Assembly (NCBI GenBank): GCA_027484145.1
Contig: JAIXUH010000013.1
Location: 558,001 to 622,000, forward strand
DNA length: 64,000 bases
Direction: 5' to 3'
From: Rhodobacter sp.
GTDB lineage: Bacteria; Pseudomonadota; Alphaproteobacteria; Rhodobacterales; Rhodobacteraceae
Part shown: positions 7,774-62,353 of the stretch, one piece after another
Position numbering within the stretch: the stretch's first letter is position 1
Layout: every line of letters starts with the position of its first letter
Program-made: the position numbers and the translations under genes
Notes under the pieces: model-generated
The model's database searches: none
What the model saw: only the letters and a program-made list of their open reading frames with translations
Told to the model about the DNA's origin: nothing

Positions 7774-7848
7774 CAGATGACAAATCCGTGATGGCCCGTG
7801 CGTCATCAAGGCCCGCAAGGCCGCTAGGCATGCCGCGTGATTTTCGCT

Positions 7849-8376: not shown

Positions 8377-8400
8377 GGCAGCGGTCCGGCGCAGGCGGCA

Positions 8401-14458: not shown

Positions 14459-15079
14459 ATGACGCCCTCCAAGCGCCTGTTTGATATCGCCTTGGCGTTG
14501 GTCCTCGGGGTGCTGCTGGTGGTTCCCTTTGCCGTTTTGCTAGTGGCGCTGCTGGTGGTGCAGGGCAGGCCAATCTTTTACGTCTCCGAACGCATGCATG
14601 CGCCGGGTGTGCCCTTTCACCTGTGGAAACTGCGCACCATGCGTGTGGTGGCCGTCGATTCCGGCGTGTCGGGCGGCGACAAGGCAGACCGGGTCACCCC
14701 GATTGGACGGTTCTTGCGCAAGTATCGGCTGGATGAGGTTCCCCAGCTTTGGAACATCCTGCGCGGCGACATGAGCTTTGTGGGCCCCCGCCCGCCATTG
14801 CGAACCTATGTCGAGCGTTTTCCAGACCTTTACGCACAGGTCTTGCGGTCGCGGCCCGGCGTGACGGGTTTGGCGACGATCCATTTTCATCGCCATGAGG
14901 CCTATATCCTGCGGCCCTGCAAAACCGCCGAGGACACGGATCAGGCCTATGCCCGCCGCTGTGTGCCGCGCAAGGCGACGCTGGACCTGATTTATCAGCG
15001 CCAGCAAAGCCTTTGCTTTGATATTCAACTGTTGTTCGAAACCATCAGTAGTGTTCTTCCGGCCCGAAAGCGGCGGTAA
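14459..15079 (+). CDS. Bacterial sugar transferase (undecaprenyl-phosphate sugar-1-phosphate transferase type)
   Basis: A small (206-residue) polyprenyl-phosphate hexose-1-phosphate transferase, which starts glycan assembly by moving a sugar phosphate from a nucleotide sugar onto undecaprenyl phosphate. It has one N-terminal hydrophobic hairpin (about 12-36), then the family motifs FHLWKLRTM, TPIGRFLRKYRLDEVPQLWNIL and the catalytic stretch GDMSFVGPRP, with a later RPGVTGLA. The short length places it with the PglC-like monotopic catalytic-domain-only group. It precedes the FlaA1/CapD-type dehydratase and the Yjb-like genes on the same strand, consistent with exopolysaccharide synthesis. Confidence 0.92.
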   Translation: MTPSKRLFDIALALVLGVLLVVPFAVLLVALLVVQGRPIFYVSERMHAPGVPFHLWKLRTMRVVAVDSGVSGGDKADRVTPIGRFLRKYRLDEVPQLWNILRGDMSFVGPRPPLRTYVERFPDLYAQVLRSRPGVTGLATIHFHRHEAYILRPCKTAEDTDQAYARRCVPRKATLDLIYQRQQSLCFDIQLLFETISSVLPARKRR

Positions 15080-15184
15080 AGGTTGTCAAGGCTGGGGATC
15101 GCCGCTAGTGATGGTTGTAGGGTATATTTGCCGTGACATGCTGCACCGTGTTGCGGCCGGATTTGGAAAAGAGGCCAAGTTAAA

Positions 15185-17101
15185 TTGGCAAACAGAATGT
15201 CCGGCCTTTTGCTGAACATCGTGGGAAGACTCTCACGCTATCAGAAACAGTCGATTCTGTTGATGGTCGATGTGGCGCTGTCCCAGATCGCCTTGATCGT
15301 CGCCTATCTGTTCATATTCCCCTCGGCAGCGCTGTCGGCCTTGCTGCAAATGGCGGCACCCGGACTGCTGACCGTTGCCGTGATCACGGCGGTCGGATCG
15401 CTCGCCCTAGAGATTCCGAAGATCAAGCTGAAGGCCTATGAGGCGCTGGGCGCGATCAAGACCAGTGCGCTGGCCGTCATGGCCGCAATCGGCCTTTTGG
15501 TGCTTCGGGCAACGCTGGGCCAGTCCCTGCCCATTTCGGGGATCCTGCTGTTCGTCTTGATCTTTATTGTCGAGATGATCATCGCCCGCTTTGTTATGCT
15601 GAACCTGCTGCTGGCCATTCTGCGTCTGGGCAAGATCCGCCGCAACGTGGTGATCTATGGCGCGGGCAATACCGGAACGCAGCTTGCCTCGGCCTTGAAG
15701 TCGCACGAAAGCATCCGCGTCGTGGCCTTTATCGACGACAGCGAAAAAGTGCAGGGCATGACCGTTCTGGGTGTGATGGTCTACCCGCCGTCGCAGCTGG
15801 ACCGCATCGTTACGAAGTATGATGTCGAGCGCGTTCTTCTGGCCATGCCATCCACGCCCGCCGCACGGCAGGCCGCCATCGTGCGCGACATCGTGGCCAA
15901 GGGTCTGGATGTGCATTCGCTGCCGTCGTTTGCCCAGTTGATCGGCACCGCAACCTTGGTTGAGGCGCTGGAGCCTGTCGCCGCCGGGGCGTTTCTGGGC
16001 CGTGCGCCTGTGTCGAACCTGCACCCCGAAACGGATAACGCCTATCGCGGGCGCAGCGTCATGGTCACAGGGGCGGGCGGGTCTGTCGGGGCAGAGCTGT
16101 GCCGTCAGTTGCTGCGCTATCGCCCCGCAAAGCTGATCCTGTTCGAAATGAGCGAGATTGCGCTTTACACCATCGAACGTGAACTGGTGGGCCGGCCCGA
16201 GGTGCAGGGGATCGAGCTTGTGCCCGTGTTGGCCTCGGTGACCGAGGCGCGTTTCGTGCGTGCGGTGATTGCGCAGCACAGCGTTGACGTGATCCTGCAC
16301 TCGGCGGCCTACAAGCATGTGCCGCTGGTCGAAGCCAACCCGATCTCGGGCGTTGTCAACAATGTGCTGGGCACGCGCACCCTTGCCGAAGCCGCACTTG
16401 AGGCGGGGGTTTCCCGCTTTATCCTGATCTCGACCGACAAGGCTGTGCGGCCGACTAACATTATGGGTGCTTCAAAGCGCATGGCCGAGTTCGTCGTGCA
16501 GGATATGGCCCGGCGGTCCGAGCATACGGATTTTTCGATTGTGCGGTTCGGCAACGTGCTGGGCAGCTCGGGGTCGGTCGTTCCTTTGTTCAAGGAACAG
16601 ATTGCCAAGGGCGGCCCGGTAACGCTGACGCATGAAGACGTCACCCGTTACTTCATGACCATCGCTGAAGCGGCCAGTCTTGTGCTGATCGCGGGCGCTT
16701 TGTCGGTGCAGCGTGGTGCCCATGAGGGCGATCTTTTCGTGCTGGACATGGGCAAGCCGATCCGCATCCGCGATCTGGCCGAACGCATGATCAAATCGGC
16801 AGGCTTTACGGTCAAGGGCCCGGACTCTCCCGATGGGGACATCGAGATTGTCGTGATCGGTTTGCGCCCCGGTGAAAAGCTGCACGAAGAACTGCTGATC
16901 GAACCGGGCATGCTGACGACGCCGCACGAGAAAATCCTGCGTGCACAAGAGCGTGGGTTAAGCAGCATCGAAATGGCCTCTGCCCTGCGCGCCTTGCGAA
17001 GCGCCGTTGCAGTGGGTGACGCCGATGCAGCAAGGGTGGTGATTGACACCTATGTTGAAGGCTATCGCGGACCAAAGGTCAGCGCCGAGAAAAGCGCCTG
17101 A
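15185..17101 (+). CDS. Membrane-bound nucleoside-diphosphate-sugar 4,6-dehydratase (FlaA1/CapD/WbpM type)
   Basis: A 638-residue enzyme with four N-terminal transmembrane segments (about 20-125), a first Rossmann-like domain (GAGNTGTQLASAL) and a C-terminal SDR catalytic domain with NAD motif TGAGGSVG (about 295-302). The active site shows the Met-x3-Lys variant MGASK (Met427, Lys431) typical of this family in place of Tyr-x3-Lys. Homologues make UDP-4-keto-6-deoxy amino sugars for capsule, O-antigen or protein glycans. The TTG at 15185 has GAGG 10 bases upstream; an ATG at 15197 is the alternative. It follows the sugar transferase by 105 bases. Confidence 0.9.
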   Translation: MANRMSGLLLNIVGRLSRYQKQSILLMVDVALSQIALIVAYLFIFPSAALSALLQMAAPGLLTVAVITAVGSLALEIPKIKLKAYEALGAIKTSALAVMAAIGLLVLRATLGQSLPISGILLFVLIFIVEMIIARFVMLNLLLAILRLGKIRRNVVIYGAGNTGTQLASALKSHESIRVVAFIDDSEKVQGMTVLGVMVYPPSQLDRIVTKYDVERVLLAMPSTPAARQAAIVRDIVAKGLDVHSLPSFAQLIGTATLVEALEPVAAGAFLGRAPVSNLHPETDNAYRGRSVMVTGAGGSVGAELCRQLLRYRPAKLILFEMSEIALYTIERELVGRPEVQGIELVPVLASVTEARFVRAVIAQHSVDVILHSAAYKHVPLVEANPISGVVNNVLGTRTLAEAALEAGVSRFILISTDKAVRPTNIMGASKRMAEFVVQDMARRSEHTDFSIVRFGNVLGSSGSVVPLFKEQIAKGGPVTLTHEDVTRYFMTIAEAASLVLIAGALSVQRGAHEGDLFVLDMGKPIRIRDLAERMIKSAGFTVKGPDSPDGDIEIVVIGLRPGEKLHEELLIEPGMLTTPHEKILRAQERGLSSIEMASALRALRSAVAVGDADAARVVIDTYVEGYRGPKVSAEKSA

Positions 17102-17155
17102 CATTTTGAATAGTGCATCTCTGCATCAAGGCGGCCCGAAAGTGCCGGCAGGGCA

Positions 17156-17183
17156 TTGTGTCAGTGGCCCAAACCCATATTCT
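17156..17183 (+). promoter_or_regulatory. Possible promoter before the YjbH-like gene
   Basis: TTGTGT, 16 bases, TATTCT, 21 bases before the ATG at 17205 in the 103-base gap after the dehydratase gene. The spacing is slightly short; read-through from upstream is equally possible. Confidence 0.3.
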
Positions 17184-17204
17184 GGCGCCAAGCAGAGGGG
17201 CATC

Positions 17205-19430
17205 ATGAATCTGAGACGGAATATGCAGCGGGTTGCCTCATTGGTTGCCATGGGTCTGATGGCAACCGGGGCAGGCGCAGAGACACGTCCAACCCTGAAC
17301 TTCTATGGCGCAACTGGCCTGATCGACATGCCGTCGGCCGAGATGCAGCCTGATGGGCTGTTGACCATCACATCGGGGCATTTTGGCCCGGTCAGCCGCA
17401 CCACATTGTCGTTTCAGATCACCCCGCGCCTGTCGGGCAGCTTTCGCTTTCTGGGCATTCGTAACTGGAACAGGTTCTCCTCGTGCCAGCCGTCCTGTTC
17501 GTCGGCGGGCGGGATCGAAGCGTTCGAGACCTATTATGACCGCAGCTTTGACCTGCGCTATCAGATCCTCGATGAAGGCAAGTATCTGCCCGCCTTGGCG
17601 ATCGGCCTGCAGGATTTTGTCGGCACGGGCAGCATCGCCGGGGAATATCTGGTCGCGACCAAGCATGTGACGCCTGACGTCAAGGTCAGCGCGGGCCTTG
17701 GCTGGGGCAGGCTTGGGTCCTACAGCAGCATCGGCAGCCCACTTGGCGACCGCCCGAAACTGGTGATCGGCAAGGGTGGGAACTTCAACTTCGACCAGTG
17801 GTTCCGTGGCCCGGCCGCGCCCTTTGCCGGCGTGGAATGGCAGGTGAACGATGCCTGGACCGTCAAGGCCGAATATTCGTCCGACAACTATACCGAAGAG
17901 GCAGGCAATCGCCGAACCTTTGACCGTCGCAGCCCGTTCAACTTTGGCGTTGAATACCAGCGCAACGAAAACATGCGTCTTGGTGCCTACTACATGTATG
18001 GCTCCGAAGTTGGCTTTGCAGCGCACTTCATTCTGAACCCCAAGAAAAGGCCCGGCGGAGGTATCGCCACCTCGGCGCCCGACCCGATTGAGCGGCGCCC
18101 TTCGCGGCAGGCCGACCCCGAGGCATGGTCGTCTGATTGGCTGGCCCAGACGGATGCGGGCAGCATCCTTCGCACCAACCTTGCCAAGCGGTTGGAGGAT
18201 GACGGCATCCTTGTGGATGGCATCAGCTATAACGGCAGCACCGCCGTGGTGCGAATTCGCAACCCGCGGCTTGACGCCGAAGCGCAGGCGATTGGCCGCA
18301 CGGCCCGCGCAATGACGAAAGTGATGCCGGCCTCTGTGGAGCAGTTCGAGATTGTGCCCGTGGTCAACGGCATGCCGGTCTCGCGCGTTGTGATCCGGCG
18401 CTCTGACCTTGAGGCGCTGGAATTTGACCCGCAAGGCGCGGAAAAGCTGCTGGAAAGGGTAAGCATCGTCTCGGCCCCTGCCACGATGCGCGACGGCTTT
18501 AATGATCCGGACGCGTTCCCCAAATTCACATGGTCGGTCGGGCCCTATGCGCGGCTGCGGCTGTTTGACCAGAATGCCCCGTTCAAGGCCGGTGTCGGCC
18601 TGCGGGCAAATGCCAAGTATGAGGTTGCGCCGGGCCTGATTCTTTCGGGTTCGGTCACAAAGCTTCTTGCCGGCAATCTGGATGACCGGCCACCGATTCC
18701 GGGCCGCAAGTTGCAGCCCGTTCGTTCAGCGAACTACTTCTACGACAGCCTTGGCGACCCCGCGCTTGAAACGCTTGCCCTCGCCTACTACCGCAAGCTG
18801 GGGCCAGAGGTGTATGGCCGCATCTCCCTTGGCTATCTGGAGCGGATGTTCGGCGGCGTTTCGACCGAACTGCTGTGGATGCCAACGAATCGCCGTTGGG
18901 CCATTGGGGCCGAAGTGAACTATGTGGCGCAACGGTCGCCTGATCAGAAGTTCGGCTTCACGCTTCCGGCCGAGATGTATGACACTGATGCCTGCGGCCT
19001 TGCCGGGCAAAGTGCCTGTGCCTCGCCGTCGTCTTACCGTGTTCTGACGGGGCATGTCAGCGGCTACTATCGCTTCAACAATGGCTTTCACGCGCAGGTG
19101 GATGTCGGCCGTTATCTGGCGGGTGACATCGGCGCAACGCTGTCAGTTAAGCGCGAGTTCGAGAATGGCTGGAAGGTCGGTGCCTTTGTGACCAAGACCA
19201 ACGTGTCGGCCGCCGATTTTGGCAGCGGTTCGTTCGACAAGGGCATTACCATCGAGATTCCTTTCGCCGCGTTGACGGGCAAACCAAGCCGGCAGCAGCG
19301 TTCAAGCGTGCTGCGGCCATTTGGGCGTGACGGCGGGCAGCGACTGGAGGTCGAAGGCCGCCTGTATGATACGGTCCGCGATTACCGCGAAAGCGGCTTG
19401 GATGAGCAGTGGGGACGGTTCTGGAAATGA
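17205..19430 (+). CDS. YjbH domain outer-membrane protein (exopolysaccharide export)
   Basis: A 741-residue protein with a signal peptide (cleavage near ATGAGAE) followed by the YjbH/GfcD-type opening PTLNFYGATGLIDMPSAEM. The rest is beta-rich with aromatic-terminated strands and many Gly/Tyr/Asn turns, as in outer-membrane beta-barrels. YjbH-family proteins in enterobacteria belong to yjbEFGH/gfc operons involved in exopolysaccharide secretion. The start at 17205 has AGAGGGG upstream; longer in-frame extensions overlap the end of the dehydratase gene. The stop overlaps the YjbF-like gene (ATGA). The precise transport role is inferred from the family. Confidence 0.88.
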   Translation: MNLRRNMQRVASLVAMGLMATGAGAETRPTLNFYGATGLIDMPSAEMQPDGLLTITSGHFGPVSRTTLSFQITPRLSGSFRFLGIRNWNRFSSCQPSCSSAGGIEAFETYYDRSFDLRYQILDEGKYLPALAIGLQDFVGTGSIAGEYLVATKHVTPDVKVSAGLGWGRLGSYSSIGSPLGDRPKLVIGKGGNFNFDQWFRGPAAPFAGVEWQVNDAWTVKAEYSSDNYTEEAGNRRTFDRRSPFNFGVEYQRNENMRLGAYYMYGSEVGFAAHFILNPKKRPGGGIATSAPDPIERRPSRQADPEAWSSDWLAQTDAGSILRTNLAKRLEDDGILVDGISYNGSTAVVRIRNPRLDAEAQAIGRTARAMTKVMPASVEQFEIVPVVNGMPVSRVVIRRSDLEALEFDPQGAEKLLERVSIVSAPATMRDGFNDPDAFPKFTWSVGPYARLRLFDQNAPFKAGVGLRANAKYEVAPGLILSGSVTKLLAGNLDDRPPIPGRKLQPVRSANYFYDSLGDPALETLALAYYRKLGPEVYGRISLGYLERMFGGVSTELLWMPTNRRWAIGAEVNYVAQRSPDQKFGFTLPAEMYDTDACGLAGQSACASPSSYRVLTGHVSGYYRFNNGFHAQVDVGRYLAGDIGATLSVKREFENGWKVGAFVTKTNVSAADFGSGSFDKGITIEIPFAALTGKPSRQQRSSVLRPFGRDGGQRLEVEGRLYDTVRDYRESGLDEQWGRFWK

Positions 19431-20095
19431 TGCGCCCTCTTGCACTGGCGTTTGCCGCCACCCTGACCGTCGCGGCCTGTGGCAATGATCCGGAGTCCTT
19501 TGTCGGCGCACGGGTGTTGCAGTCCTCTCTGGCGGAACAGACCAAGGGTCTGACCAAACGTAAGGCGGCGGCACCGGCCCCTGTACAGGTGACGCGCGCA
19601 GCCCTTGCCACGGTTGAGACGCCTGTCATCCTGATGACGGTTGAATCACGTGGCCAACATGCGCTGATCGCTGAGGTTGCCGATAACCTTGGCGTGCAAA
19701 CATGGTCGACCGTCGATGATGTGACCGTTTCTATGAAGAATGGTGTCGTCGTTGCAACACGTGGTTTTGGTGCCGACCTGATGGCGGCATCGGTTCCAAA
19801 CCCGGCCGTCTTGCAAAGTGCCGCAAAATCCTATGGCAGAATCCATACGTATCTCGATGGCACAGACCGCGCGGTGCAGATGAACTTTACCTGCAACGTG
19901 ACCAACCTAGGCGCGCAAGCCATTGAAGTTGTTGAAATTGTGTATCAGACACGCCATGTTTCCGAAACCTGCACGGGCAACGGGATCGAATTTACGAACG
20001 AATACTGGCTTGATGGATCGGCTCATATCCGCAAGTCGCGCCAACTGGTCAGTCAGGATGCCGGATATTTGGTCATCGAAGACCTTCGTCGCTGA
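19427..20095 (+). CDS. YjbF/GfcB-like lipoprotein
   Basis: 222 residues with a lipoprotein signal (LTVAAC lipobox at about residue 21), then a beta-rich periplasmic domain matching the YjbF/GfcB group (TVDDVTVSMKNGVVVATRGFG). In E. coli, yjbF and gfcB are partners of yjbH/gfcD in exopolysaccharide or group 4 capsule operons. Here the gene is translationally coupled to the YjbH-like gene by an ATGA overlap; a second ATG follows three bases later. The small YjbE-like gene is 77 bases downstream. A YjbG/GfcC homologue is not present in this window. Confidence 0.82.
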   Translation: MMRPLALAFAATLTVAACGNDPESFVGARVLQSSLAEQTKGLTKRKAAAPAPVQVTRAALATVETPVILMTVESRGQHALIAEVADNLGVQTWSTVDDVTVSMKNGVVVATRGFGADLMAASVPNPAVLQSAAKSYGRIHTYLDGTDRAVQMNFTCNVTNLGAQAIEVVEIVYQTRHVSETCTGNGIEFTNEYWLDGSAHIRKSRQLVSQDAGYLVIEDLRR

Positions 20096-38891: not shown

Positions 38892-39037
38892 CCCGCGCGA
38901 AAGGGGGGGGAGGGGGCAATTCCCACAGATTTTTGCCAGTTGGCGCAACCATGCCGCAACGCGGGGGTTCGCAGGCAAGGACCAGCGGCCCGCCCGCCCT
39001 TGATTGTCTTGTGGCCGGATCAGATTACACCCCATCC

Positions 39038-39056
39038 GGGAGGGGTGGGTGCAGGG
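39038..39056 (+). other. G-quadruplex motif in the alkB leader
   Basis: GGGAGGGGTGGGTGCAGGG: four G-tracts with loops of 1, 1 and 4 bases, on the coding strand, ending 19 bases before the alkB ATG. Short loops of this kind give stable quadruplexes in vitro in general; function here is untested. Confidence 0.6.
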
Positions 39057-39075
39057 TAAACGGGGAAGGGCAAAG

Positions 39076-39684
39076 ATGTCTGGGCCGATCGAGATGGACG
39101 GGTTCCGCCTGTGGCACGGGTATCTGGACCCGGCGCAGCAGACCCATATGGTAGACGATTTGCGCGCCGTTGTGGCGGTGGCACCGCTTTATGCCCCGGT
39201 TACGCCGGGCGGCAAACCCATGAGCGTGCGGATGACATCGGCGGGGCGTCTGGGCTGGATCACCGACAGGCAGGGCTATCGCTATGCGCCCACCCATCCG
39301 CAGGGCCAGCCTTGGCCCCCGATTCCCGGCAGCGTGCTCGCCATCTGGCGCGACCTGTGCGGCACGGAACGTGCGCCCGATTGCTGTCTTGTCAACTTCT
39401 ATGGCGAAGGCGCGAAAATGGGCCTGCATCAGGACAAGGACGAAGGTGATTTCAGCTTTCCGGTTTTGTCGATTTCATTGGGCGATTCTGCCCTGTTCCG
39501 CATGGGTGGAACGGAACGGGGCGGCCCCACGCGCAGTGTATGGCTGCATTCGGGTGATGTCATGGTCATGGGCGGGCCGGCGCGTCTGGCGTGGCACGGG
39601 GTGGATCGGGTGCGCCATGGGTCATCGACCCTGTTGCCAAAGGGCGGGCGCATCAATCTGACGTTGCGGGTGGTGGCAGTTTAG
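39076..39684 (+). CDS. alkB: AlkB, alpha-ketoglutarate-dependent DNA/RNA dealkylase
   Basis: Fe(II)/2-oxoglutarate dioxygenase that repairs 1-methyladenine and 3-methylcytosine. The 202-residue protein shows the iron ligands His118 and Asp120 (LHQDKDE) and His174 (AWHGVDR), with the oxoglutarate-binding arginine in GRINLTLR. The substrate-binding lid region (MSVRMTSAGRLGWITD) matches bacterial AlkB. The ATG at 39076 follows GGGGAAGGGCAAAG; longer in-frame codons upstream run through the quadruplex motif. The stop overlaps the convergent permease gene's stop by three bases. Confidence 0.95.
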   Translation: MSGPIEMDGFRLWHGYLDPAQQTHMVDDLRAVVAVAPLYAPVTPGGKPMSVRMTSAGRLGWITDRQGYRYAPTHPQGQPWPPIPGSVLAIWRDLCGTERAPDCCLVNFYGEGAKMGLHQDKDEGDFSFPVLSISLGDSALFRMGGTERGGPTRSVWLHSGDVMVMGGPARLAWHGVDRVRHGSSTLLPKGGRINLTLRVVAV

Positions 39685-40502
39685 CGCCGCGCCGACCAAC
39701 TGGCCGAGGCATATTTGCGCGTATAGAATTCGCCCATCAGCCCGATCACCACGCAGACCGCCGTCACGATGATCGGATACTCGATGTTGCTGTAACGCGG
39801 GTGATAATTCAGGAAGATAAATCCCCGGCCTTGGTCAATCGTGTGAAACAGCGGATTCCAGTCAAAATAGACAAGGATATGGGTCGGCATCATGTTGGCC
39901 ACGAACATCTTGCCCGACGCGATCATGTTCGTGCGCTGATACAACTGCGATACCACGCCGAACAGTTCAGGCTGCCATGGGGTTGCCGCCTTGAACACCA
40001 TGCCGATGGCGACACCCGATATCCATGACAGCAGATGCATCCCAAGGGTGCCGACAGGTTCAAAGATGGTGATCGGCTGAAACGCGGCATGATAGAAGTA
40101 GAGAACAACGCCCGCCGAAAGCGTCTGCATGTACAGCGCCCCAAGCGCCGCCGCCCCGATCGAGATGATGGGGTTCATCGGCGAATGCTTCATCATAGGC
40201 GATGTCGGGCCATCGGCGCCGATGACGGCACCCATCGCCTTGGTATGGGTCATGAACATGAACACGCCCGACATGACATACAGCAGGAAATCGCCGCGAA
40301 TGGCGTTGCCGCGCATGCCGAGCAAATCGAACATGAAAAAGAACACCGCCACCAGCATGACCGTCTGCAGGATGTTCATCAGCAGGCCGATGACCGCATT
40401 GCCATGCGACCGGCGCACGGACCGGACCGCAGCATGAAACACCAGTTCCAGCATGGACAGCGCCGTGCGGCTTGGTGTCTTTCTGACCTCGGTTCGGAAC
40501 AT
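39681..40502 (-). CDS. ABC-2 type polysaccharide export permease (KpsM-like)
   Basis: A 273-residue integral membrane protein with about six hydrophobic segments and the layout of capsule/polysaccharide ABC permeases (KpsM/Wzm type): a cytoplasmic amphipathic N-terminus (TALSMLELVFHAAVRSVRRS), a cluster of membrane helices, and the re-entrant-like end HPRYSNIEYPI. The ATPase (KpsT/Wzt) is not adjacent and is absent from the window, so the permease is an orphan here. Start at 40502; an ATG at 40544 would add 14 residues. It diverges from cysQ across 142 bases, next to a group of glycosyltransferase genes. Confidence 0.85.
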   Translation of the reverse strand: MFRTEVRKTPSRTALSMLELVFHAAVRSVRRSHGNAVIGLLMNILQTVMLVAVFFFMFDLLGMRGNAIRGDFLLYVMSGVFMFMTHTKAMGAVIGADGPTSPMMKHSPMNPIISIGAAALGALYMQTLSAGVVLYFYHAAFQPITIFEPVGTLGMHLLSWISGVAIGMVFKAATPWQPELFGVVSQLYQRTNMIASGKMFVANMMPTHILVYFDWNPLFHTIDQGRGFIFLNYHPRYSNIEYPIIVTAVCVVIGLMGEFYTRKYASASWSARR

Positions 40503-40644
40503 TCTGCCTAATTCCTCGACACGGTTGCACAGAGAACCGCCCATCTTACCGCAGGAAATCTTGCCGTTTCCTTTGCGGCAATGATAAGGCGGCACAAGGC
40601 CCAAAGGCAACCTTCGTGCCGAACATGCGGTTGATGGAGACGAA

Positions 40645-41442
40645 ATGAACTTTGATCAGCTTGTTTCAGTGATGCGGCGGCTTGCGCTCGAGGCGGGCGA
40701 CCGGATCATGCAGGTCTATAATTCGCCCGAGTTTGACGTGAAGTCGAAAAGTGATTCGAGCCCGGTGACCGAGGCGGACGAAGCCGCCGATGCCCTGATC
40801 TCGGCCGGCCTGCGGGCGGAGTTTCCCGACGTGGTTCTGATCACCGAAGAACAGGCCGCCAGCCACGCGCTGAGTGCGAAAACCTTTCTGATCGTTGATC
40901 CGCTGGATGGCACCAAGGAATTCGTGCAGCGGCGCGGCGATTTCACCGTGAACATCGCTTACGTGCAGGACGGCGTTCCTTTGCGCGGCGTGGTCTATGC
41001 CCCAGCACAGGGCCGGCTATTCTATACCGCCGCCGATGGCAGCGCCGTCGAAGAGGCCGGTCCGTTTGACAAGACCACCGTTGGCGCGCTGACCCCGATC
41101 CGTGTCGCCACGCCTGATCCTTCGGCCCTGATGGTGGTGGCGTCCAAATCGCACCGCGACGCCGCGACCGATGCCTATATCGGCAAGTATCAGGTCAAGG
41201 ACATGAAAAGCGCAGGCTCCAGCCTCAAGTTCTGCCTTGTCGCCACGGGCGAGGCCGATCTTTACCCCCGTCTTGGCCGCACGATGGAATGGGACACCGC
41301 CGCCGGCGACGCCGTTCTGCGCGGGGCGGGCGGGCATGTGGTGCGCTTTGATACCCACGAACCGCTGGCCTATGGCAAAAGCGGGTGGGACAATCCGTTC
41401 TTCATCGCTTATGCTCCGGGCATTGCCCTTGTGGCAGGCTGA
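40645..41442 (+). CDS. cysQ: 3'(2'),5'-bisphosphate nucleotidase
   Basis: Hydrolyses 3'-phosphoadenosine 5'-phosphate (PAP) to AMP, removing a product that inhibits PAPS reductase and sulfotransferases. The 265-residue protein has the inositol-monophosphatase-fold metal site: SSPVTEADE, ITEEQ (about 67-71), DPLDGTKEF (85-93) and a C-terminal WDTAAGDAVLRGAGG. DGTKEF and the length favour CysQ over inositol monophosphatase. Its position upstream of galU, three glycosyltransferases and a sulfotransferase suggests a dedicated PAP-clearing role. A GC dyad follows 21 bases after the stop. Confidence 0.92.
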   Translation: MNFDQLVSVMRRLALEAGDRIMQVYNSPEFDVKSKSDSSPVTEADEAADALISAGLRAEFPDVVLITEEQAASHALSAKTFLIVDPLDGTKEFVQRRGDFTVNIAYVQDGVPLRGVVYAPAQGRLFYTAADGSAVEEAGPFDKTTVGALTPIRVATPDPSALMVVASKSHRDAATDAYIGKYQVKDMKSAGSSLKFCLVATGEADLYPRLGRTMEWDTAAGDAVLRGAGGHVVRFDTHEPLAYGKSGWDNPFFIAYAPGIALVAG

Positions 41443-41463
41443 AAGCAGGTCTACCTGAGTCTT

Positions 41464-41484
41464 CCGGGGCGGCATCTGCCCCGG
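41464..41484 (+). terminator. GC dyad after cysQ, weak terminator candidate
   Basis: CCGGGGC, seven-base loop, GCCCCGG, with no T run after it. The rest of the 255-base cysQ-galU interval contains no gene I can support. Confidence 0.35.
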
Positions 41485-41697
41485 CCCACTGGATCAAATG
41501 ATGATGTTGGTGTTCATCCAATGGGTGAAAAGTAGCCAGATTGCCGCCAAGGCCCTGAAATCAGCGTGTTCCAAGGTCATGAAAACCGCATGTATGCCAA
41601 GAATTCATAGTTTTGCCGTTATCTTGACGATACCTTCTGATGATAAGCACGGCGCAAGCCGATCTCTAATTGCCGCAGCAGCTGCAGAGTGGACGAA

Positions 41698-42591
41698 ATG
41701 AAGCAAAAAAAGGTTTCCAAGGCAGTCTTTCCCGTGGCTGGGCTGGGAACGCGGTTCCTGCCCGCAACGAAATCGATCCCGAAGGAGATCATGACGCTGG
41801 TCGACCGCCCGCTGATCCAATACGCGATCGACGAGGCACGCGCCGCCGGGATCAAGGAATTCATCTTCGTTACCTCGCGCGGGAAATCCGCGCTTGAGGA
41901 CTATTTTGACAGCGCACCAGAACTTGAGTCTGCGCTGCGGAAATCAGGCAAGGACCACCTGCTTGATATCCTGAAAGACACCAACATGGATTCGGGCGCC
42001 ATAGCGTATGTCCGTCAGAACCGTCCGATGGGTCTGGGCCATGCGGTCTGGTGCGCGCGCCGCCTGATCGGCAACGAACCCTTCGCAGTTCTGCTGCCCG
42101 ATGACGTGATTGCCGCCGAAAAGCCCTGCCTGCAGCAAATGATCGAGGCCTATGCCGAAACCGGGGGCAACATGGTTGCCGCCATGGAAGTGTCGCCTGA
42201 CAAGGCATCGTCTTACGGCGTGCTCGACATCGGCAACGACATGGGCTCGATCGTCGAGGCGAAGGGCATGGTCGAAAAGCCGCCAAAGGGCACCGCGCCG
42301 TCAAACCTTGCCGTGATCGGCCGCTACATCCTGTCGCCCAAGGTGATGACCAACCTGAACCGCATGAAACAGGGCGCAGGCGGGGAAATCCAGCTGACCG
42401 ACGCCATTGCCGAAGAAATCGGTGACGGCAAGGTGTTCGGCTATCGCTTCCGCGGGCAGCGCTATGACTGCGGGTCAAAGGCCGGGTTCCTGCAGGCTAC
42501 CGTCGCCTTCGGTCTGGCCCGCCCGGACCTGCGCGAAGAATTTGGCGCCTATCTGAACGATATGGTCGCCTTGCAAAAAGCAGCGCAGTAA
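41698..42591 (+). CDS. galU: UTP-glucose-1-phosphate uridylyltransferase
   Basis: Makes UDP-glucose, the precursor for many surface glycans. The 297 residues show the nucleotide-binding start AVFPVAGLGTRFLPATKSIPKE, the LVDRPLIQYAIDEA motif and VEKPPKGTAPSNLAVIGRYI, all canonical for bacterial GalU. I chose the ATG at 41698; a GTG three codons earlier is possible. The first glycosyltransferase follows after only 15 bases, so galU probably feeds and is co-transcribed with that cluster. Confidence 0.96.
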   Translation: MKQKKVSKAVFPVAGLGTRFLPATKSIPKEIMTLVDRPLIQYAIDEARAAGIKEFIFVTSRGKSALEDYFDSAPELESALRKSGKDHLLDILKDTNMDSGAIAYVRQNRPMGLGHAVWCARRLIGNEPFAVLLPDDVIAAEKPCLQQMIEAYAETGGNMVAAMEVSPDKASSYGVLDIGNDMGSIVEAKGMVEKPPKGTAPSNLAVIGRYILSPKVMTNLNRMKQGAGGEIQLTDAIAEEIGDGKVFGYRFRGQRYDCGSKAGFLQATVAFGLARPDLREEFGAYLNDMVALQKAAQ

Positions 42592-42606
42592 CGCGCGCGC
42601 AACGAA

Positions 42607-43701
42607 GTGGACCCAAGGGTGGCGGGCAGGTTTTCTGGAAACGGAACAGCTGTCGCCCTTGGTGAGCCGGCACCCGCTGTGCCGCTGTACCAAAAGCTTC
42701 TGTCCGATTACGCCCTTCGCACCAAACGCCGCCGCTTACTGTGGCGGGCTTTTCGCAGCAGACACGCCCTGCATCGCGTGGCCGACCGCACCGGCACGAT
42801 CCGCAAGGGCGATGTGCTGTGCTTTGTCACCTTGCGTAACGAAGCCGTGCGCCTGCCGCATTTTCTGGACCATCATCGCAAGCTGGGCGTTGATCATTTC
42901 CTGATCGTGGACAATGGCAGCACCGATGGCAGCGCCGACCTGTTGCGATCTGCCCCCGATGTTTCCCTTTGGCACACCTCGACCAGCTACAAGGCATCGC
43001 GCTTTGGGCTGGATTGGGTGACGTGGCTGCAGATCCGCCACGGCCATGGCCATTGGTGCCTGACGCTGGATGCGGATGAACTGATGCTTTATCCGCATTA
43101 TGAAACCCGCTCGCTGCAGGCGCTGGGCGCGTGGCTTGACCAGCAGGGGCAGCGCTCCTTCGGGGCCATGATGCTGGATCTTTACCCCCAAGGGCCGCTG
43201 TCCGCTGCAGTCTGCGGCCCGGGGGATGACCCCCTGTCGGTGCTGCAATGGTTTGATCCCGGCAATTACTCAGTGATGGTGCAAAGCCGCATGCGCAACC
43301 TGTGGATTCAGGGTGGCCCCCGCGCGCGCATGTTCTTTGCGCAAGAACCGCGCCGGGCGCCCACCCTGAACAAGGTGCCTTTCGTCAAATGGGACCGTCG
43401 CTTTGCCTATGTGAATTCGACCCATGCGCTGCTGCCGCCCCCGCTGAACGAGGTCTATGACACCACGGGCGGAGAGCGGACGTCGGGCGTTTTGCTGCAC
43501 ACAAAGTTCCTGCAGATCATTCTGGACAAATCGCGCGAAGAGAAAGAGCGTCGCCAACATTTCGCCAACAGCGCGCTGTATGACCGTTACTATGATGGGG
43601 TCATGGCAGACCCGGTGCTGTATTGCGCGGCCTCGCGGCGGTTGACCGGGTGGCGTCAGCTTGAGGCGCTTGGCCTGCTGTCACGGGGGGGGTGGGTGTG
43701 A
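42607..43701 (+). CDS. Glycosyltransferase family 2-like protein, copy 1
   Basis: 364 residues with a GT-A-like catalytic half: FVTLRNEAVRLPHFL, FLIVDNGSTDGS (DNGSTDGS at 102-109) and the metal-binding LDADE (154-158). This is the layout of the Glyco_tranf_2_4 group, which includes enzymes of capsule, EPS and some eukaryotic-like GT92 relatives. No membrane segment is evident, so it is probably cytoplasmic. The GTG at 42607 is the earliest start; homology with copy 2 begins near residue 33, so a later start is possible. Its close paralogue lies 160 bases downstream. Donor and acceptor sugars are unknown. Confidence 0.85.
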   Translation: MDPRVAGRFSGNGTAVALGEPAPAVPLYQKLLSDYALRTKRRRLLWRAFRSRHALHRVADRTGTIRKGDVLCFVTLRNEAVRLPHFLDHHRKLGVDHFLIVDNGSTDGSADLLRSAPDVSLWHTSTSYKASRFGLDWVTWLQIRHGHGHWCLTLDADELMLYPHYETRSLQALGAWLDQQGQRSFGAMMLDLYPQGPLSAAVCGPGDDPLSVLQWFDPGNYSVMVQSRMRNLWIQGGPRARMFFAQEPRRAPTLNKVPFVKWDRRFAYVNSTHALLPPPLNEVYDTTGGERTSGVLLHTKFLQIILDKSREEKERRQHFANSALYDRYYDGVMADPVLYCAASRRLTGWRQLEALGLLSRGGWV

Positions 43702-43861
43702 TAGCCGGACGGATTGTTTACAAAACAGCATCACCCAGATAGGGTTTGGCATCAAAAATGCATCGGAAACCGATACTTCCGGGCGGCTGGTCAGAAAACA
43801 CATGCTTTCTTCACGATCCGCCGCCTAAAGGTTTCAAAACGGCAGGAAACAGGTCTGTAGC

Positions 43862-44872
43862 GTGGGGCTGATCAATTCTTACCGCCTTCGCTGGCAACGC
43901 AGGCGCCTTTTGGCGCGGGCGTTCCTGCATCGGCGCGACCTGACTGTGGTCGCGGACCGGATGGCATCGGTCCGCCCGCAGCCGATCCTTGCTTTTGTGA
44001 CCCTGCGCAACGAAAAGGTTCGGCTGCCGTATTTCCTGCAATACTACCGCGAACTGGGCATTGATCATTTCCTGATCGTGGACAATGCCTCGTCCGATGG
44101 GTCGCGGGAATATCTGGCCGCGCAACCCGATGTGTCGCTGTGGTCAACCACGGCCAGCTACAAGGGCAGCCGGTTTGGCATGGATTGGCTGGGCCATCTG
44201 CTGCGCCGCTATGGCCATGGCAACTGGTGCCTGACCATCGACCCGGATGAATTCTTCGTCTACCCCTTTTGCGAAACGCGCCCGATCCGCGCGCTGACAG
44301 ACTGGCTGGACACCACCGCCGTCCGCACCTTTTCGGCGCTGCTGCTGGACATGTATCCCAAGGGGCCGATCACGGGCCAACCCTACCGCGAAGGGCAAGA
44401 CCCGTTCGAAATTGCCCAGTGGTTTGACAGCGGCAACTACATGATCAGCCGCAACCCGGCCTATGGGAACCTGTGGATTCAGGGTGGCCCGCGCACGCGC
44501 ACCTTCTTTGCCGACAAGCCCAAGCTTTCGCCCGCGCTGAACAAGGTGCCGCTGGTGAAATGGCACCGCTCTTATGCCTATATCAGCTCCACCCACATGC
44601 TGCTGCCGCGCGGCCTTAATCTGGCCTATGACGAATGGGGCGGCGAAAAGGCATCGGGTGCCCTATTGCACGCCAAATTCCTTGATACCTTTGCCGCCAA
44701 GGCGGCCGAAGAGGTGTCACGTGGTGAACACTATGCCGCCAGTGCCGAATACAAGGCCTATCAGGAAGGGCTGTCCAAGCACCCCGATCTGTGGTGCAAG
44801 TGGAGCGAGAAGTATATCAACTGGCGCCAGCTGGAGATTTTGGGGCTGATGTCCAAGGGGAACTGGGCATGA
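43862..44872 (+). CDS. Glycosyltransferase family 2-like protein, copy 2
   Basis: A 336-residue paralogue of the preceding gene. It shares FVTLRNE, IDHFLIVDN, a catalytic acidic motif (DPDE at 127-130 here), NLWIQGGPR, LNKVP and a C-terminal WRQLE.LGL..KGNW. The DPDE in place of DADE and scattered differences suggest divergence in specificity after duplication rather than redundancy. The start is a GTG at 43862; upstream in the 160-base gap I see no gene. The stop overlaps the branching-type transferase start (ATGA), which ties it to the downstream genes more tightly than copy 1. Confidence 0.85.
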   Translation: MGLINSYRLRWQRRRLLARAFLHRRDLTVVADRMASVRPQPILAFVTLRNEKVRLPYFLQYYRELGIDHFLIVDNASSDGSREYLAAQPDVSLWSTTASYKGSRFGMDWLGHLLRRYGHGNWCLTIDPDEFFVYPFCETRPIRALTDWLDTTAVRTFSALLLDMYPKGPITGQPYREGQDPFEIAQWFDSGNYMISRNPAYGNLWIQGGPRTRTFFADKPKLSPALNKVPLVKWHRSYAYISSTHMLLPRGLNLAYDEWGGEKASGALLHAKFLDTFAAKAAEEVSRGEHYAASAEYKAYQEGLSKHPDLWCKWSEKYINWRQLEILGLMSKGNWA

Positions 44873-46587
44873 CCGTGGCAGGGGCGGGCGCGCGCGTCGG
44901 CTTTTTGATGCTGTGCCACACTGCACTTGACCGTGCAGCTCAGGTCGCGCGCCATTGGGCCGAACGCGGTTGCCCGGTTGTCATCCATGTTGACCGCCGT
45001 GTGGCCGCCGCACCCTATGCCAAGCTGATGGCCGACCTTGCCGATCTGCCCGATGTGCGGTTTTCGGGGCGTCATGCCTGTGAATGGGGAACCTGGGGCA
45101 TTGTCGCGGCCAGCCAGCAGGCTGCCACCATGATGCTGCGCGATTTTCCCGATGTGCGGCACGTCTATCTGGCCTCCGGCTCGTGCCTGCCGCTGCGCCC
45201 GGTCGAAGAGCTTGCCGCCTATCTGGACGAACGCCCCCGCACCGATTTCATCGAAAGTGTCACCACCGAAGATGTCGGCTGGACGGTGGGCGGCCTCAGT
45301 GTGGAACGCTTCACCCTGCGGTTCCCGTTCAGCTGGCGCAAACAGCGCGCGCTGTTCGACCTTTATGTCGAGTTGCAGCGCAAGGTGCGCTTTCGTCGCA
45401 AGATGCCCGATGGCGTTGTGCCGCATCTTGGCAGCCAGTGGTGGTGCCTGACCCGGCAAACCCTGTCGGCCATGCTGGAACACCCTGAACGTGCCCGCAT
45501 CGACCGCTATTTCCGCAAGGTCTGGATCCCCGACGAAAGCTATTTCCAGACCATGGTACGCATGGTTTCGTCCAACGTGGAAAGCCGCTCGCTGACCCTG
45601 TCCAAGTTCGACTATCAGGGCAAGCCACATATCTTTTACGATGACCACCTGCAGCTTTTGCGGCGGTCTGACTGTTTTGTTGCGCGCAAGATCTGGCCGC
45701 AGGCGGACAAGATCTATGCGGCCTTCCTGTCAGATGACCGCAGCCGTCAGGCCGTGGCCGAACCCAACCCCGGCAAGATTGACCGCCTGTTTGCCAAGGC
45801 GGTCGAGCGCCGGACAAAGGGGCGTCCGGGGCTGTATATGCAAAGTCGCTTTCCCAACGCCAACTGGGAAAACGGCCGCACCGCGGGCCCCTATTCGGTG
45901 TTTTCCGGCTTTTCCGACGTGTTCGAAAACTTCGAAATCTGGCTGTCCAAGGCCAGCGGCACGCGGGTGCATGGCCACCTTTTCGCGCCCGACCGCGTGC
46001 ATTTCGCCGGGGGCGAGCATGTCTATAACGGCGCTTTGTCCGACAGCGCCGCCTTGCGCGACTATAACCCCAAAAGCTTTCTCACCAGTCTGATCTGGAA
46101 CACGCGCGGCGAGCGGCAGTGCTTTCAGTTCGGCCCCGGCGATGACCAGACCCTGAACTGGTTCATGGCCATGGATCTGAACGCGCAGATTTCGGTCATC
46201 TCGGGCGCATGGGCGGTGCCGCTGTTCCATTCGAACCAGAATTTCAGCGACATCCGCCGCGAAGCCGCCCGCCTGCAAAAGCTTGAGCAAGAGTTTCTGA
46301 ATATCCTGCGCTCGCCCCATGCCAAGGCCCGCACGCGCATCTGGTCGCTGGCAGATTTCGTCGAAAACCCGATGGAGCCGTTGCAGACCATCATCGATGA
46401 AATCGGCCCCCGGCAGGGCCGCCGCCTGACCGAAGCGCCGCGCATGGCCGATCTGACCGGCTTTGGCCAGTTCCTGCAGAATCTGCGCAATCAGGGCATG
46501 CAGCCGGTGCTGATGGGCGATTTTCCCGTGGGCGATGACCCCAAACCCACCTCGACGCGCCGCGGGCGCCCCTATCTGGTGAAGTGA
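44869..46587 (+). CDS. Core-2/I-branching-type beta-1,6-N-acetylglucosaminyltransferase-like protein
   Basis: 572 residues. The N-terminal ~300 residues match the GT14 Core-2/I-branching fold: FLMLCHTALDRAAQVARHW, VVIHVDRR (38-44), YLASGSCLPLRP (about 100-111) and SQWWCLTR. GT14 enzymes add branching GlcNAc or xylose residues in eukaryotes; bacterial members act on surface glycans, with few characterised. The C-terminal ~270 residues (from about SRFPNANWENG) form a second conserved-looking domain I cannot assign. Start at 44869 in an ATGA overlap with copy 2; the sulfotransferase begins immediately after the stop. A branching role is inference. Confidence 0.8.
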   Translation: MTVAGAGARVGFLMLCHTALDRAAQVARHWAERGCPVVIHVDRRVAAAPYAKLMADLADLPDVRFSGRHACEWGTWGIVAASQQAATMMLRDFPDVRHVYLASGSCLPLRPVEELAAYLDERPRTDFIESVTTEDVGWTVGGLSVERFTLRFPFSWRKQRALFDLYVELQRKVRFRRKMPDGVVPHLGSQWWCLTRQTLSAMLEHPERARIDRYFRKVWIPDESYFQTMVRMVSSNVESRSLTLSKFDYQGKPHIFYDDHLQLLRRSDCFVARKIWPQADKIYAAFLSDDRSRQAVAEPNPGKIDRLFAKAVERRTKGRPGLYMQSRFPNANWENGRTAGPYSVFSGFSDVFENFEIWLSKASGTRVHGHLFAPDRVHFAGGEHVYNGALSDSAALRDYNPKSFLTSLIWNTRGERQCFQFGPGDDQTLNWFMAMDLNAQISVISGAWAVPLFHSNQNFSDIRREAARLQKLEQEFLNILRSPHAKARTRIWSLADFVENPMEPLQTIIDEIGPRQGRRLTEAPRMADLTGFGQFLQNLRNQGMQPVLMGDFPVGDDPKPTSTRRGRPYLVK

Positions 46588-47979
46588 TTGGCCCAGGCGT
46601 TTGACAGTTTCGTCATGTTTGCCGAAATGCGGACAGGCTCCAACTTTCTGGAGGCGAACCTGAACACGATGGCGGGCGTCACCTGCCATGGCGAGATGTT
46701 CAACCCGCACTTCATCGGCAAACTGAACCAGACCTCGTTTCTGGGGTTTTCTATGGCTGACCGTGCCACCGACCCGCTGGCGCTGATCCGTGCCGCGCGG
46801 ACGCAGACCACCGGGCTGGCCGGCTTTCGCTATTTTCATGACCATGACCCGCGGGTGCTGGAACCCGTTCTGGAAGACCCCGCCTGTGCCAAGATCATCC
46901 TGACCCGCAACCCGATCGAAAGCTATGTCAGCTGGAAGATCGCGCAGGAAACCGGGCAGTGGAAGCTGACCAATTCCAAAAAGCTGAAGACCGCGCAGGT
47001 GCTGTTTGATGCGGCCGAGTTCGAGGCCCATCTTGCCGGGCTGCAGGCTTTTCAGGTGCGCCTGATGCATGGCTTGCAGGTCACCGGGCAGACGGCGTTT
47101 TACATCGACTATGATGACATCAACGATCTTGATGTGCTCAATGGCCTTGCCGCCTTTCTTGGGGTGCCGCCGCTGGAGCGTCTGGATGGCAGCCTTAAGA
47201 AGCAGAACCCCGAAGAGATTTCGGAAAAGGTTCTGAACCCCGAAGAGATGGAGCGTGCCCTTTCCCGACTTGACCGCTTCAATCTGGCCCGCACCCCCAA
47301 CTTTGAACCGCGCCGCCCGCCCATGGTGCCGGCCTTTGTCGCCGCGCGCAAAGCGCCGCTGCTTTACATGCCGGTGCGGTCCAATGTGGTGCCGCGCGTG
47401 ACAGACTGGCTGGCTTCCTTTGGTGGGGCCGAAAGCGACTTTACCCAAAAGACCCTGCGCCAATGGAAACGGGCCCGGCCCGGCCACCGCAGCTTTACCG
47501 TGGTGCGCCACCCGCTAGCCCGCGCCCATGATGCCTTTGTCGACCAGATTCTGACCGGAACCTTCCACGAAATCCGCAATCAGCTGGAAAAGGTCTACAA
47601 GCTGCCCCTGCCAGCGGCGGGCAAGCATTATGGCGACAAATACGCCCATCAGGCCGGGTTTCTTGCCTTTCTCAAATGGCTGAAGCTGAACCTCTCAGGC
47701 CAGACCGGCACCCGCGTTGATGCCTGCTGGGCCAGTCAGACCGCTGTGCTGCAGGGGTTCGCCCAGTTTCAGGGGCCCGATCTGGTGCTGCGAGAGGATC
47801 GTTTGGCCGAAGGTCTGGCCTATCTTGCGGATGAGGTCGGCAAAGCCTGTCCGGCACTTGCCCCCGCCCCGCAAGACGAAATGCTCGCCACCGTCTATGA
47901 TGATGAGCTGGAGGCCGCCGCGCGTGAGGCTTATGCCCGCGATTACGTGGGCTTCGGCTTTCGGGACTGGTCGGCCTGA
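46588..47979 (+). CDS. Sulfotransferase-like protein with two tandem domains
   Basis: 463 residues. The N-terminal domain has both PAPS-binding elements of sulfotransferases: the 5'-phosphosulfate loop RTGSNF (15-20) and the 3'-phosphate segment ILTRNPIESYVSW (TRNP 106-109), as in NodH/Stf0-like carbohydrate sulfotransferases. The C-terminal half (about 255-463) resembles the Sulfotransfer_2 group at VVRHPLARAHDAF (305-317), but its loop region reads LLYMPVRSNVVPR and lacks the usual K-x-A-G-T/S pattern. It may therefore be a degenerate second domain. The TTG start follows the preceding stop directly, so translation probably depends on coupling. The acceptor glycan is unknown. Confidence 0.78.
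   Translation: MAQAFDSFVMFAEMRTGSNFLEANLNTMAGVTCHGEMFNPHFIGKLNQTSFLGFSMADRATDPLALIRAARTQTTGLAGFRYFHDHDPRVLEPVLEDPACAKIILTRNPIESYVSWKIAQETGQWKLTNSKKLKTAQVLFDAAEFEAHLAGLQAFQVRLMHGLQVTGQTAFYIDYDDINDLDVLNGLAAFLGVPPLERLDGSLKKQNPEEISEKVLNPEEMERALSRLDRFNLARTPNFEPRRPPMVPAFVAARKAPLLYMPVRSNVVPRVTDWLASFGGAESDFTQKTLRQWKRARPGHRSFTVVRHPLARAHDAFVDQILTGTFHEIRNQLEKVYKLPLPAAGKHYGDKYAHQAGFLAFLKWLKLNLSGQTGTRVDACWASQTAVLQGFAQFQGPDLVLREDRLAEGLAYLADEVGKACPALAPAPQDEMLATVYDDELEAAAREAYARDYVGFGFRDWSA

Positions 47980-56840: not shown

Positions 56841-56844
<4 letters not shown>
56413..56844 (+). CDS. GFA/CENP-V family zinc protein
   Basis: A 143-residue member of the glutathione-dependent formaldehyde-activating (GFA)/CENP-V fold. 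Zinc ligands are visible as GQCLCGAVKVQ (Cys9, Cys11), ACHCRMCQRW (Cys29, Cys31, Cys34) and FCTVCGSHLW. Despite the family name, most members have no proven formaldehyde activity. It is coupled by ATGA overlaps both to the secreted-protein gene upstream and to gltB downstream. The reason for its place in the GOGAT operon is unknown. Confidence 0.87.
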
Positions 56845-61376
<4,532 letters not shown>

Positions 61377-61660: not shown

Positions 61661-62353
61661 ATGATCATTTCCCACAAGTATAAATTCATCTTCATCAAAA
61701 CGCGCAAAACCGCCGGAACCAGCATCGAAACCTTTCTGTCGCCACTGTGTGGCGAAGAAGATGTTCTGACGCCGATTTTCCCGCCAGAGCCGGGTCATGT
61801 GGCGCGTAACCACATGGGCCTTTACAACCCGCTGCCCCCCTTGCTGCGCCCGCCCATGCCGGGCCTGCACCATTCGGTCAGTTGGGTGGCCAAGAACCTG
61901 TTGCGCCGGCAAAAGTTCTTCAACCACATCGCCGGAATTGATGTGCGTGACCGCCTGCCGCGCCGCATCTGGAATTCATACTTCAAGTTCTGCGTCGAAC
62001 GGCATCCGTTTGAAAAGACACGCTCGTTCTATGCCATGGTAAAGGAACGTCAGGCGGCAGCGTCTGCCGACATCCTGTTCAATCAGGACACGTTGCCGAG
62101 TGACTGGCACAAATATGCCGATCCAAAGGGCAATATCATCGTGGACAAGGTGCTGCGCTACGAAGACCTGAATGCCGAACTGGCCGGGGTGTTCCAAACG
62201 CTTGGCGTGCCCTTCGGCGATGGTCTGAAGCAGCGGGCCAAGGGTGGATTGCGGCCGTCCGGTCAGCGGCTGGAGTTCTCGTCGGCGCAAAAGGCCGCCA
62301 TCATGGACGTGTTCCGCCACGAGATGGCAACCTTCGGATATACGCCAGACTGA
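61661..62353 (+). CDS. Sulfotransferase family 2-type protein
   Basis: A 230-residue protein with the PAPS-binding loop KTRKTAGTSIE (RKTAGTS at 15-21) and the 3'-phosphate segment CVERHPFEKTRSFY (RHP at 114-116), both intact. The sequence resembles the Sulfotransfer_2 group, which acts on carbohydrates such as chondroitin or heparan in animals and on surface glycans in bacteria. No signal peptide or membrane helix is evident. It stands alone between the gltB terminator and mtgA and appears to have its own promoter. The RHP segment resembles that of the C-terminal half of the 46588 gene. Confidence 0.85.
   Translation: MIISHKYKFIFIKTRKTAGTSIETFLSPLCGEEDVLTPIFPPEPGHVARNHMGLYNPLPPLLRPPMPGLHHSVSWVAKNLLRRQKFFNHIAGIDVRDRLPRRIWNSYFKFCVERHPFEKTRSFYAMVKERQAAASADILFNQDTLPSDWHKYADPKGNIIVDKVLRYEDLNAELAGVFQTLGVPFGDGLKQRAKGGLRPSGQRLEFSSAQKAAIMDVFRHEMATFGYTPD

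Follow-up and report, generated by a model that had tools for sequence, protein, structure and literature searches.

The window analysed here, a 64,000-nucleotide (nt) stretch of a Rhodobacter sp. genome (assembly GCA_027484145.1, contig JAIXUH010000013.1, positions 558,001 to 622,000), contains a block of seven genes that probably serve the assembly and sulfation of a capsule-type surface polysaccharide. The gene for a permease of the KpsM/VexB type, a component of ATP-binding cassette (ABC) polysaccharide exporters, lies on the minus strand (39681..40505). On the plus strand follow cysQ, encoding a 3'(2'),5'-bisphosphate nucleotidase (40645..41442), galU for a UTP-glucose-1-phosphate uridylyltransferase (41689..42591), two glycosyltransferase (GT) genes (GTa, 42607..43701, and GTb, 43862..44872), a GT14 gene fused to DUF5927 (44869..46587), and ST1 for a two-domain sulfotransferase (46588..47979). 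These seven genes and the gaps of 15, 160, -4 and 0 nt after galU, all named in the original prediction made from the DNA, were confirmed in the list of open reading frames (ORFs) of the window. The permease ORF covers 39681-40610 (minus strand), of which we adopted the later start at 40505, and the GT14 ORF covers 44791-46587 (plus strand), with the adopted start at 44869 giving the gap of -4. The cysQ-galU gap (41443..41688, plus strand) is free of the kdsB gene and the GT2 gene (GT2x) found at this place in relatives.

CysQ and GalU exceed the cut-offs of their families (TIGR01331, 257.5 bits versus 228.8; TIGR01099, 333.3 bits versus 326.8). GTa and GTb both belong to Pfam PF13704 and are 54% identical; GTb occurs in all 109 loci fetched for comparison, and GTa occupies a variable slot. 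The permease had no match in the Pfam search, and its NCBIfam scores are far below the respective cut-offs (VexB, 35.6 bits versus 297; KpsM, 32.9 bits versus 300); we name it from these weak matches together with its co-occurrence across genomes.

The GT14 protein (572 residues) combines a GT-A domain (about residues 1-300; PF02485, 61.3 bits) with a C-terminal DUF5927 (about 273-572; PF19349, 538.9 bits). Its best structural relatives are xylosyltransferase 1 (XylT1; profile 2.5e-9, fold 2.1e-15) and then C2GnT-L, and the GT-A fold resembles that of these GT14 enzymes. The motif W-I-P-D-E (219-223), which presumably has a catalytic role, is invariant in 55/55 rows of the GT14 alignment. DUF5927 itself likely has a sulfotransferase-like, perhaps degenerate fold, as suggested by its hhalign match to the N-terminal domain of ST1 (score 33.3, probability 34%, E 4e-4), whereas 14 other families score no higher than 22.1, the reversed profile 19.0, and 60 column shuffles reach a maximum of 26.0. 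Speaking against this, the score drops to 29.1 (E 0.0048) with the full ST1 alignment, and a Pfam search to E 10 matched the region to DUF5927 alone. Foldseek with the GT14 model returned no match recognisably for DUF5927 alone among the best 50 of 1921 rows, a P-loop motif was not seen by eye, and nothing on DUF5927 was found in the Creative Commons (CC)-licensed PMC literature.

ST1 matches PF03567 just above the cut-off (22.8 bits versus 22), and its family profile matches the structure 9vki, "LPS sulfotransferase NodH", over residues 7-154 (1.4e-14). Stf0 is the best fold match of the ST1 model (1.6e-4), and the other matches, including TPST, NDST and 3-OST, are modest as well (E 1e-4 to 1e-2). 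In the N-terminal domain, M14-R-T-G-S-N19, R107 and S115 are invariant in 61/61 rows and aligned with NodH 9vki. We take these motifs to be the 5'-phosphosulfate-binding loop and the 3'-phosphate-binding motif, so that the alignment recovers both features of a Stf0/NodH-like enzyme. The position that we assume to be that of the P-loop lysine in the C-terminal domain holds arginine in 31/61 rows, lysine in 12/61 and other residues in the rest. We read ST1 as a NodH/Stf0-like N-terminal domain followed by a degenerate Sulfotransfer_2-like C-terminal domain, and the locus is likely to sulfate its product. Because pTM is low in both models (ST1, pLDDT 91 and pTM 0.56; GT14, pLDDT 87 and pTM 0.63), the placement of the domains relative to each other is uncertain.

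Conservation of the block and its glycosyltransferase slot

The block is a real and widely conserved system. Our sample of the order comprised 292 genomes from 112 genera, all of the window's own family, and an ST1 match was found in 279 of them and in 106 genera, one match being weak (genome G198, 6e-10). In a 385-genome sample of the class, full-length GT14-DUF5927 was found only in five genomes of the same family, including our own; among the remaining 380, seven had partial matches to the GT14 domain and 373 had none. A GT14 match was also present in 36 of 44 genomes that either came from genera outside the listed ST1 survey or lacked ST1; two of the 36, G174 and G075, carry partial or remnant sequences.

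Gene order was compared in 109 loci, in general a single one for each genus, which were fetched as fragments of up to about 20 kb. KpsM, CysQ, GTb and GT14 occur together in 100 of them, and six of the nine remaining fragments hit a contig end; in genome G231, KpsM is on a separate contig. GTb and GT14 are at most 50 nt apart in 107/109 loci, as are GT14 and ST1 in 103/105. A scan of named genomes confirmed at least 592 stretches; in the best 80, which include Pseudotabrizicola, Gemmobacter, Rhodobacter, Roseovarius, Paracoccus and metagenome-assembled genomes, one of them labelled Sphingomonadales, ST1 adjoins GT14 in all but two. Since this order recurs across genera, the grouping is more than chance. 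The comparison across relatives that had been proposed as a check thus came out in favour of KpsM, the glycosyltransferases, GT14 and the sulfotransferase.

Several genes around the block are conserved too, namely dnaK/dnaJ, alkB, ptsN, hpf and lpt genes, with LptB/A/C downstream in many loci. In the window, family searches identify an AlkB-like 2-oxoglutarate-Fe(II) oxygenase ORF (39004-39684, plus strand) that converges with the permease gene, overlapping it by 4 nt, a position often conserved in relatives. In 29 of the 100 loci with all four genes, DnaK/DnaJ or PtsN/HPF/LptB could not be located in the fragment to one or both sides of the block (upstream in 18, downstream in five, on both sides in six), with less than 1.5 kb of upstream sequence available in two of the 29. 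The block is often kept where this flanking synteny is lost, which supports the proposal that the group builds and sulfates a surface polysaccharide. ST1 is cleanly absent from four of the 109 loci, in which the remaining block is kept and PtsN begins 3-36 nt after GT14.

The region from cysQ to GT14 contains a slot with essentially two states, counted in the 101 loci whose fragment includes CysQ (our own among them). GT2x, a GT2 enzyme of about 410 amino acids (PF13641/PF00535), is located between cysQ and the glycosyltransferases in 57 loci; it accompanies one PF13704 enzyme in 56 loci and two in a single locus, and the remaining 44 loci have two PF13704 enzymes and no GT2x. The mutual exclusion of GT2x and the second PF13704 enzyme is strong (Fisher 5e-28, relatedness ignored). 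KdsB lies between cysQ and the glycosyltransferases in 71/101 loci, and galU is missing from four. On a FastTree phylogeny of GT14 (109 rows), the slot changes state 25 times, compared with 27 to 40 times in 200 shuffles, and at least 15 times after branches with support below 95 were collapsed. The GT14 tree could deviate from the species tree through recombination; whichever tree holds, the cassettes seem to have been exchanged.

Predicted export and priming genes elsewhere in the genome

The permease had been regarded as an orphan, which was not borne out. The window locus is on contig C38 of our assembly; contig C22 encodes KpsS, a KpsD/VexA-like protein (PF02563) and KpsC consecutively, and contig C23 encodes KpsT and KpsE. 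The orders KpsS-KpsD-KpsC and KpsT-KpsE were seen in 17/17 and 10/10 fetched locus-positive loci, respectively, including our own. The genome thus encodes KpsM-KpsT, KpsE and an outer-membrane polysaccharide export (OPX) protein (KpsD), as in ABC-dependent (group 2/3) capsules, with scores below the equivalog cut-offs, together with KpsS and KpsC, which by sequence family are of the beta-3-deoxy-D-manno-octulosonic acid (Kdo) transferase type (PF05159, 165.4 and 226.1 bits).

Ten genomes lacking both ST1 and full GT14 served as the locus-negative set; the Fisher values given for comparisons between genomes disregard relatedness. A permease of the window type was present in 30/30 locus-positive genomes (identity at least 42%) and 0/10 negatives (Fisher 1e-9), four of which carry only remote permeases with 21-26% identity. 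PF05159 proteins were found in 57/57 positives, whereas the ten negatives comprise four without a match, three with weak and three with strong matches, and KpsE was found in 21/21 positives. The suggestion that the permease exports the product is therefore supported, and we regard the export role and the co-occurrence as well supported.

A second locus on C22 encodes GT14-DUF5928 and a Sulfotransfer_2 protein (positions 5243-8804 of the fetched stretch L151, C22:390000-405000), with an adjacent acyltransferase-3 gene. Its sulfotransferase occurs in 28 of 29 positives, being split in two in G133 and missing in G198, and by position it is located beside the second GT14 in all 28 (one piece in G133). 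The two pieces in G133 (C1:3684833 and C1:3708415) lie on opposite strands, with about 23 kb between them. In one fetched locus (L176), KpsT-KpsE adjoin GT14-DUF5928 and the second sulfotransferase. None of the ten locus-negatives has the second sulfotransferase, apart from short fragments in G075. This genome retains remnants of both GT14-DUF5927 (C1:4333490-4333639) and the second sulfotransferase (C1:180294-180537), which suggests joint decay of the two loci. Overall, KpsM, GT14-DUF5927, KpsS/KpsC and the second sulfotransferase are largely present or absent as a set.

CysQ behaves differently from a phosphatase dedicated to the pathway, which would be gained and lost with the sulfotransferase. 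A close CysQ was found in 35/35 genomes, including all ten negatives (51-81% identity in the latter), and cysQ adjoins kdsB in eight of these ten. As CysQ is kept in all negatives, it is a housekeeping gene located here, although it may nonetheless clear the 3'-phosphoadenosine 5'-phosphate (PAP) produced by ST1. The original prediction is consequently supported for a group that builds and sulfates a surface polysaccharide and for its exporter, whereas a PAP-scavenging role of cysQ reserved for this group is not supported. KdsB was considered as a KpsU-type capsule marker and dropped, as it was found in 33/33 genomes, all ten negatives included, with one main match each (in our genome at C3:306206) and short extra matches in three genomes, one of which has a stop (G283). 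Adenylylsulfate (APS) kinase, present in 35/35 genomes, was dropped as a marker as well.

Elsewhere in the window, a polysaccharide gene set separate from the ST1 locus (14459-20095, plus strand) encodes a bacterial sugar transferase (PF02397), a Polysacc_synt_2 dehydratase (PF02719), YjbH and a YjbF/GfcB-like protein. A further Sulfotransfer_2-like protein (61661-62353, plus strand; 21.3 bits, cut-off 22) is encoded downstream of a 1511-amino-acid ORF (56841-61376) that appears glutamate synthase-like by eye only.

A candidate sulfated capsule pathway and its alternatives

We consider it probable that the locus provides the assembly and tailoring functions of a scattered, ABC-transporter-type, capsule-type polysaccharide pathway with sulfation dependent on 3'-phosphoadenosine 5'-phosphosulfate (PAPS), shared across most of the Rhodobacteraceae. 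In the route that we infer, KpsS and KpsC (C22) would prime a lipid with beta-Kdo, and GTb and the enzyme in the slot, which is GTa in the window, would extend the chain from UDP-sugars, supplied in part via GalU. GT14-DUF5927, resembling xylosyltransferase and C2GnT, would add a core or branch sugar, and ST1 would sulfate the glycan in the cytoplasm, with PAPS as the donor. The dispersed Kps parts would act jointly in export to the surface, with KpsM from the window, KpsT-KpsE from C23 and the KpsD/VexA-like outer-membrane protein from C22. The second locus would probably contribute further sulfated decoration, and CysQ would clear PAP for the whole cell, not solely for this pathway.

Several observations weigh against this interpretation. 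The counts of slot states and gene order were made on fragments no longer than about 20 kb, with most genera represented by a single locus. The Kps-type names are based on scores under the NCBIfam equivalog cut-offs: KpsS reaches 224.4 bits against a cut-off of 600 (NF050054), and KpsC had no match in the NCBIfam search. The kps genes of a textbook capsule are clustered, whereas here they do not form a single contiguous cluster. Three of the ten locus-negative genomes have strong PF05159 matches. When two of them, G141 and G110, were compared (G227 was left out), KpsS was 34% and 36% identical to our copy, the latter over 153 residues, versus 49-83% in positives; KpsC of G110, at 48%, is close to the 49-67% of positives. 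KpsE tracks the block less well, since it is strong in four negatives (weak in two, absent in four), and cysQ, kdsB and APS kinase occur whether or not the block is there. Only three of the negatives (G060, G075 and G094) have ST1-bearing relatives in the same genus, which leaves about three clearly independent losses. Finally, the absence of ST1 from four otherwise kept loci implies that it is dispensable.

The alternative that survives best, though we regard it as unlikely, is that the enzymes act on the core or O-antigen of lipopolysaccharide (LPS) instead of a capsule exported by Kps proteins. Among solved structures, the one nearest to ST1 carries the annotation LPS sulfotransferase; in many loci the block is succeeded by LptB/A/C, and kdsB is often inside it. 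However, kdsB is present with or without the block and hence not tied to it, the block persists where lpt neighbours were not found in the fragment, and it is KpsM and mostly KpsS/KpsC that track it. Still less probable is adjacency through ancestral synteny only, with the genes belonging to separate pathways. Conserved neighbours such as dnaK/dnaJ and ptsN and the housekeeping nature of cysQ and kdsB would fit such a scenario, but KpsM, CysQ, GTb and GT14 stay united in the 29 loci with a flank not found, genes of the block overlap or abut, and they are absent jointly with genes located elsewhere in the genome. That ST1 and the sulfotransferase-like domains have no sulfating activity and play a structural or regulatory role by binding PAPS or sugar, as the variable lysine position of the C-terminal domain and the lack of a visible P-loop in DUF5927 might suggest, is the least plausible alternative given the invariant, NodH-aligned motifs of the N-terminal domain.

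A bolder extension of the capsule reading, which we put forward as a long shot, is a family-wide sulfated, proteoglycan-like glycan made by a xylosyltransferase-like GT14 enzyme with a sulfotransferase-like domain and varied through one switchable slot, possibly serving as a shared receptor for gene transfer agents (GTAs), with slot types as exchange groups. A capsular receptor for RcGTA was reportedly described by Brimacombe in 2013. TIGR02217, presumably a GTA-type gene, was found in 32/35 ST1-positive genomes (five of the 35 classed by ST1 alone) and in 8/10 negatives; its presence therefore does not track the capsule, and co-occurrence was dropped as an argument for the link. RcGTA head fibres bind the capsule of R. 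capsulatus (PMC7296036).

If the capsule pathway is confirmed, a sulfated capsule would be predicted in about 106/112 sampled genera of the order, and the surface chemistry of this group, which is common in the environment, would vary far less than has been assumed. In bacteria, few genes usually vary as much as those for capsule polymers, which differ from strain to strain. The predicted glycan would also offer a single target for studies of contact with phages, GTAs, algae and protists, and the pathway would yield new sulfotransferases and new enzymes of the GT14 family and place DUF5927 and DUF5928 in a functional context for the first time.

Comparison with known systems

The original prediction knew of no characterised system with exactly this gene set, and none was found here either: a description of the locus was not found among the listed titles and abstract beginnings (10 of 251 in one search) from the CC-licensed PMC literature, and the accessible portion of PMC5542703 mentions neither Rhodobacter nor sulfated. 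The nearest counterpart is Cobetia marina KMM 1449, for which a sulfated capsule was structurally determined and kpsETMD, kpsSC, cysN/C, cysD, cysQ and a sulfotransferase were assigned (PMC11766843). This group III-type capsule shares kpsETMD, kpsSC, the sulfotransferase, cysQ and PAPS genes with our system, but its genes form one cluster of about 70 with dTDP-rhamnose and GDP-mannose genes, whereas here the loci are scattered and family-wide. GT14-DUF5927 and the PF13704 enzymes are a further difference, as the accessible text on Cobetia mentions neither GT14 nor DUF5927. Vibrio sp. KMM 8419 likewise has a sulfated, ABC-exported capsule with UDP-glucose and sulfotransferase genes; there, however, kpsC is absent and an undecaprenyl-phosphate route is proposed (PMC11641403), while our genome encodes proteins of both the KpsS and the KpsC type. 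Group 2 capsules use the same KpsS/KpsC priming and export families (PMC11666461, which covers KpsS/KpsC chemistry and transition transferases), yet their polymer genes vary by serotype, in contrast to the conservation across genera with one two-state slot seen here.

The individual components also have recognisable relatives. The Vi exporter VexABCD provides the best NCBIfam matches for the outer-membrane protein, permease and ATPase (VexA, VexB and VexC), and the KpsE-like protein matches VexD, although scores are far below the equivalog cut-offs and KpsS/KpsC-type proteins are present here. Human XylT1 and mouse C2GnT-L, both GT14 enzymes, resemble our protein in GT-A fold and sequence profile, but the C-terminal region of XylT1 is replaced by DUF5927. 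ST1 shares its fold and the PAPS-type motifs of the N-terminal domain with Stf0/NodH and differs in carrying an additional degenerate sulfotransferase-like domain. Sulfated kps capsules are thus already known from Cobetia and Vibrio, and what is new here is the two-state slot, the GT14-DUF5927 fusion, the two-domain ST1 and the second locus.

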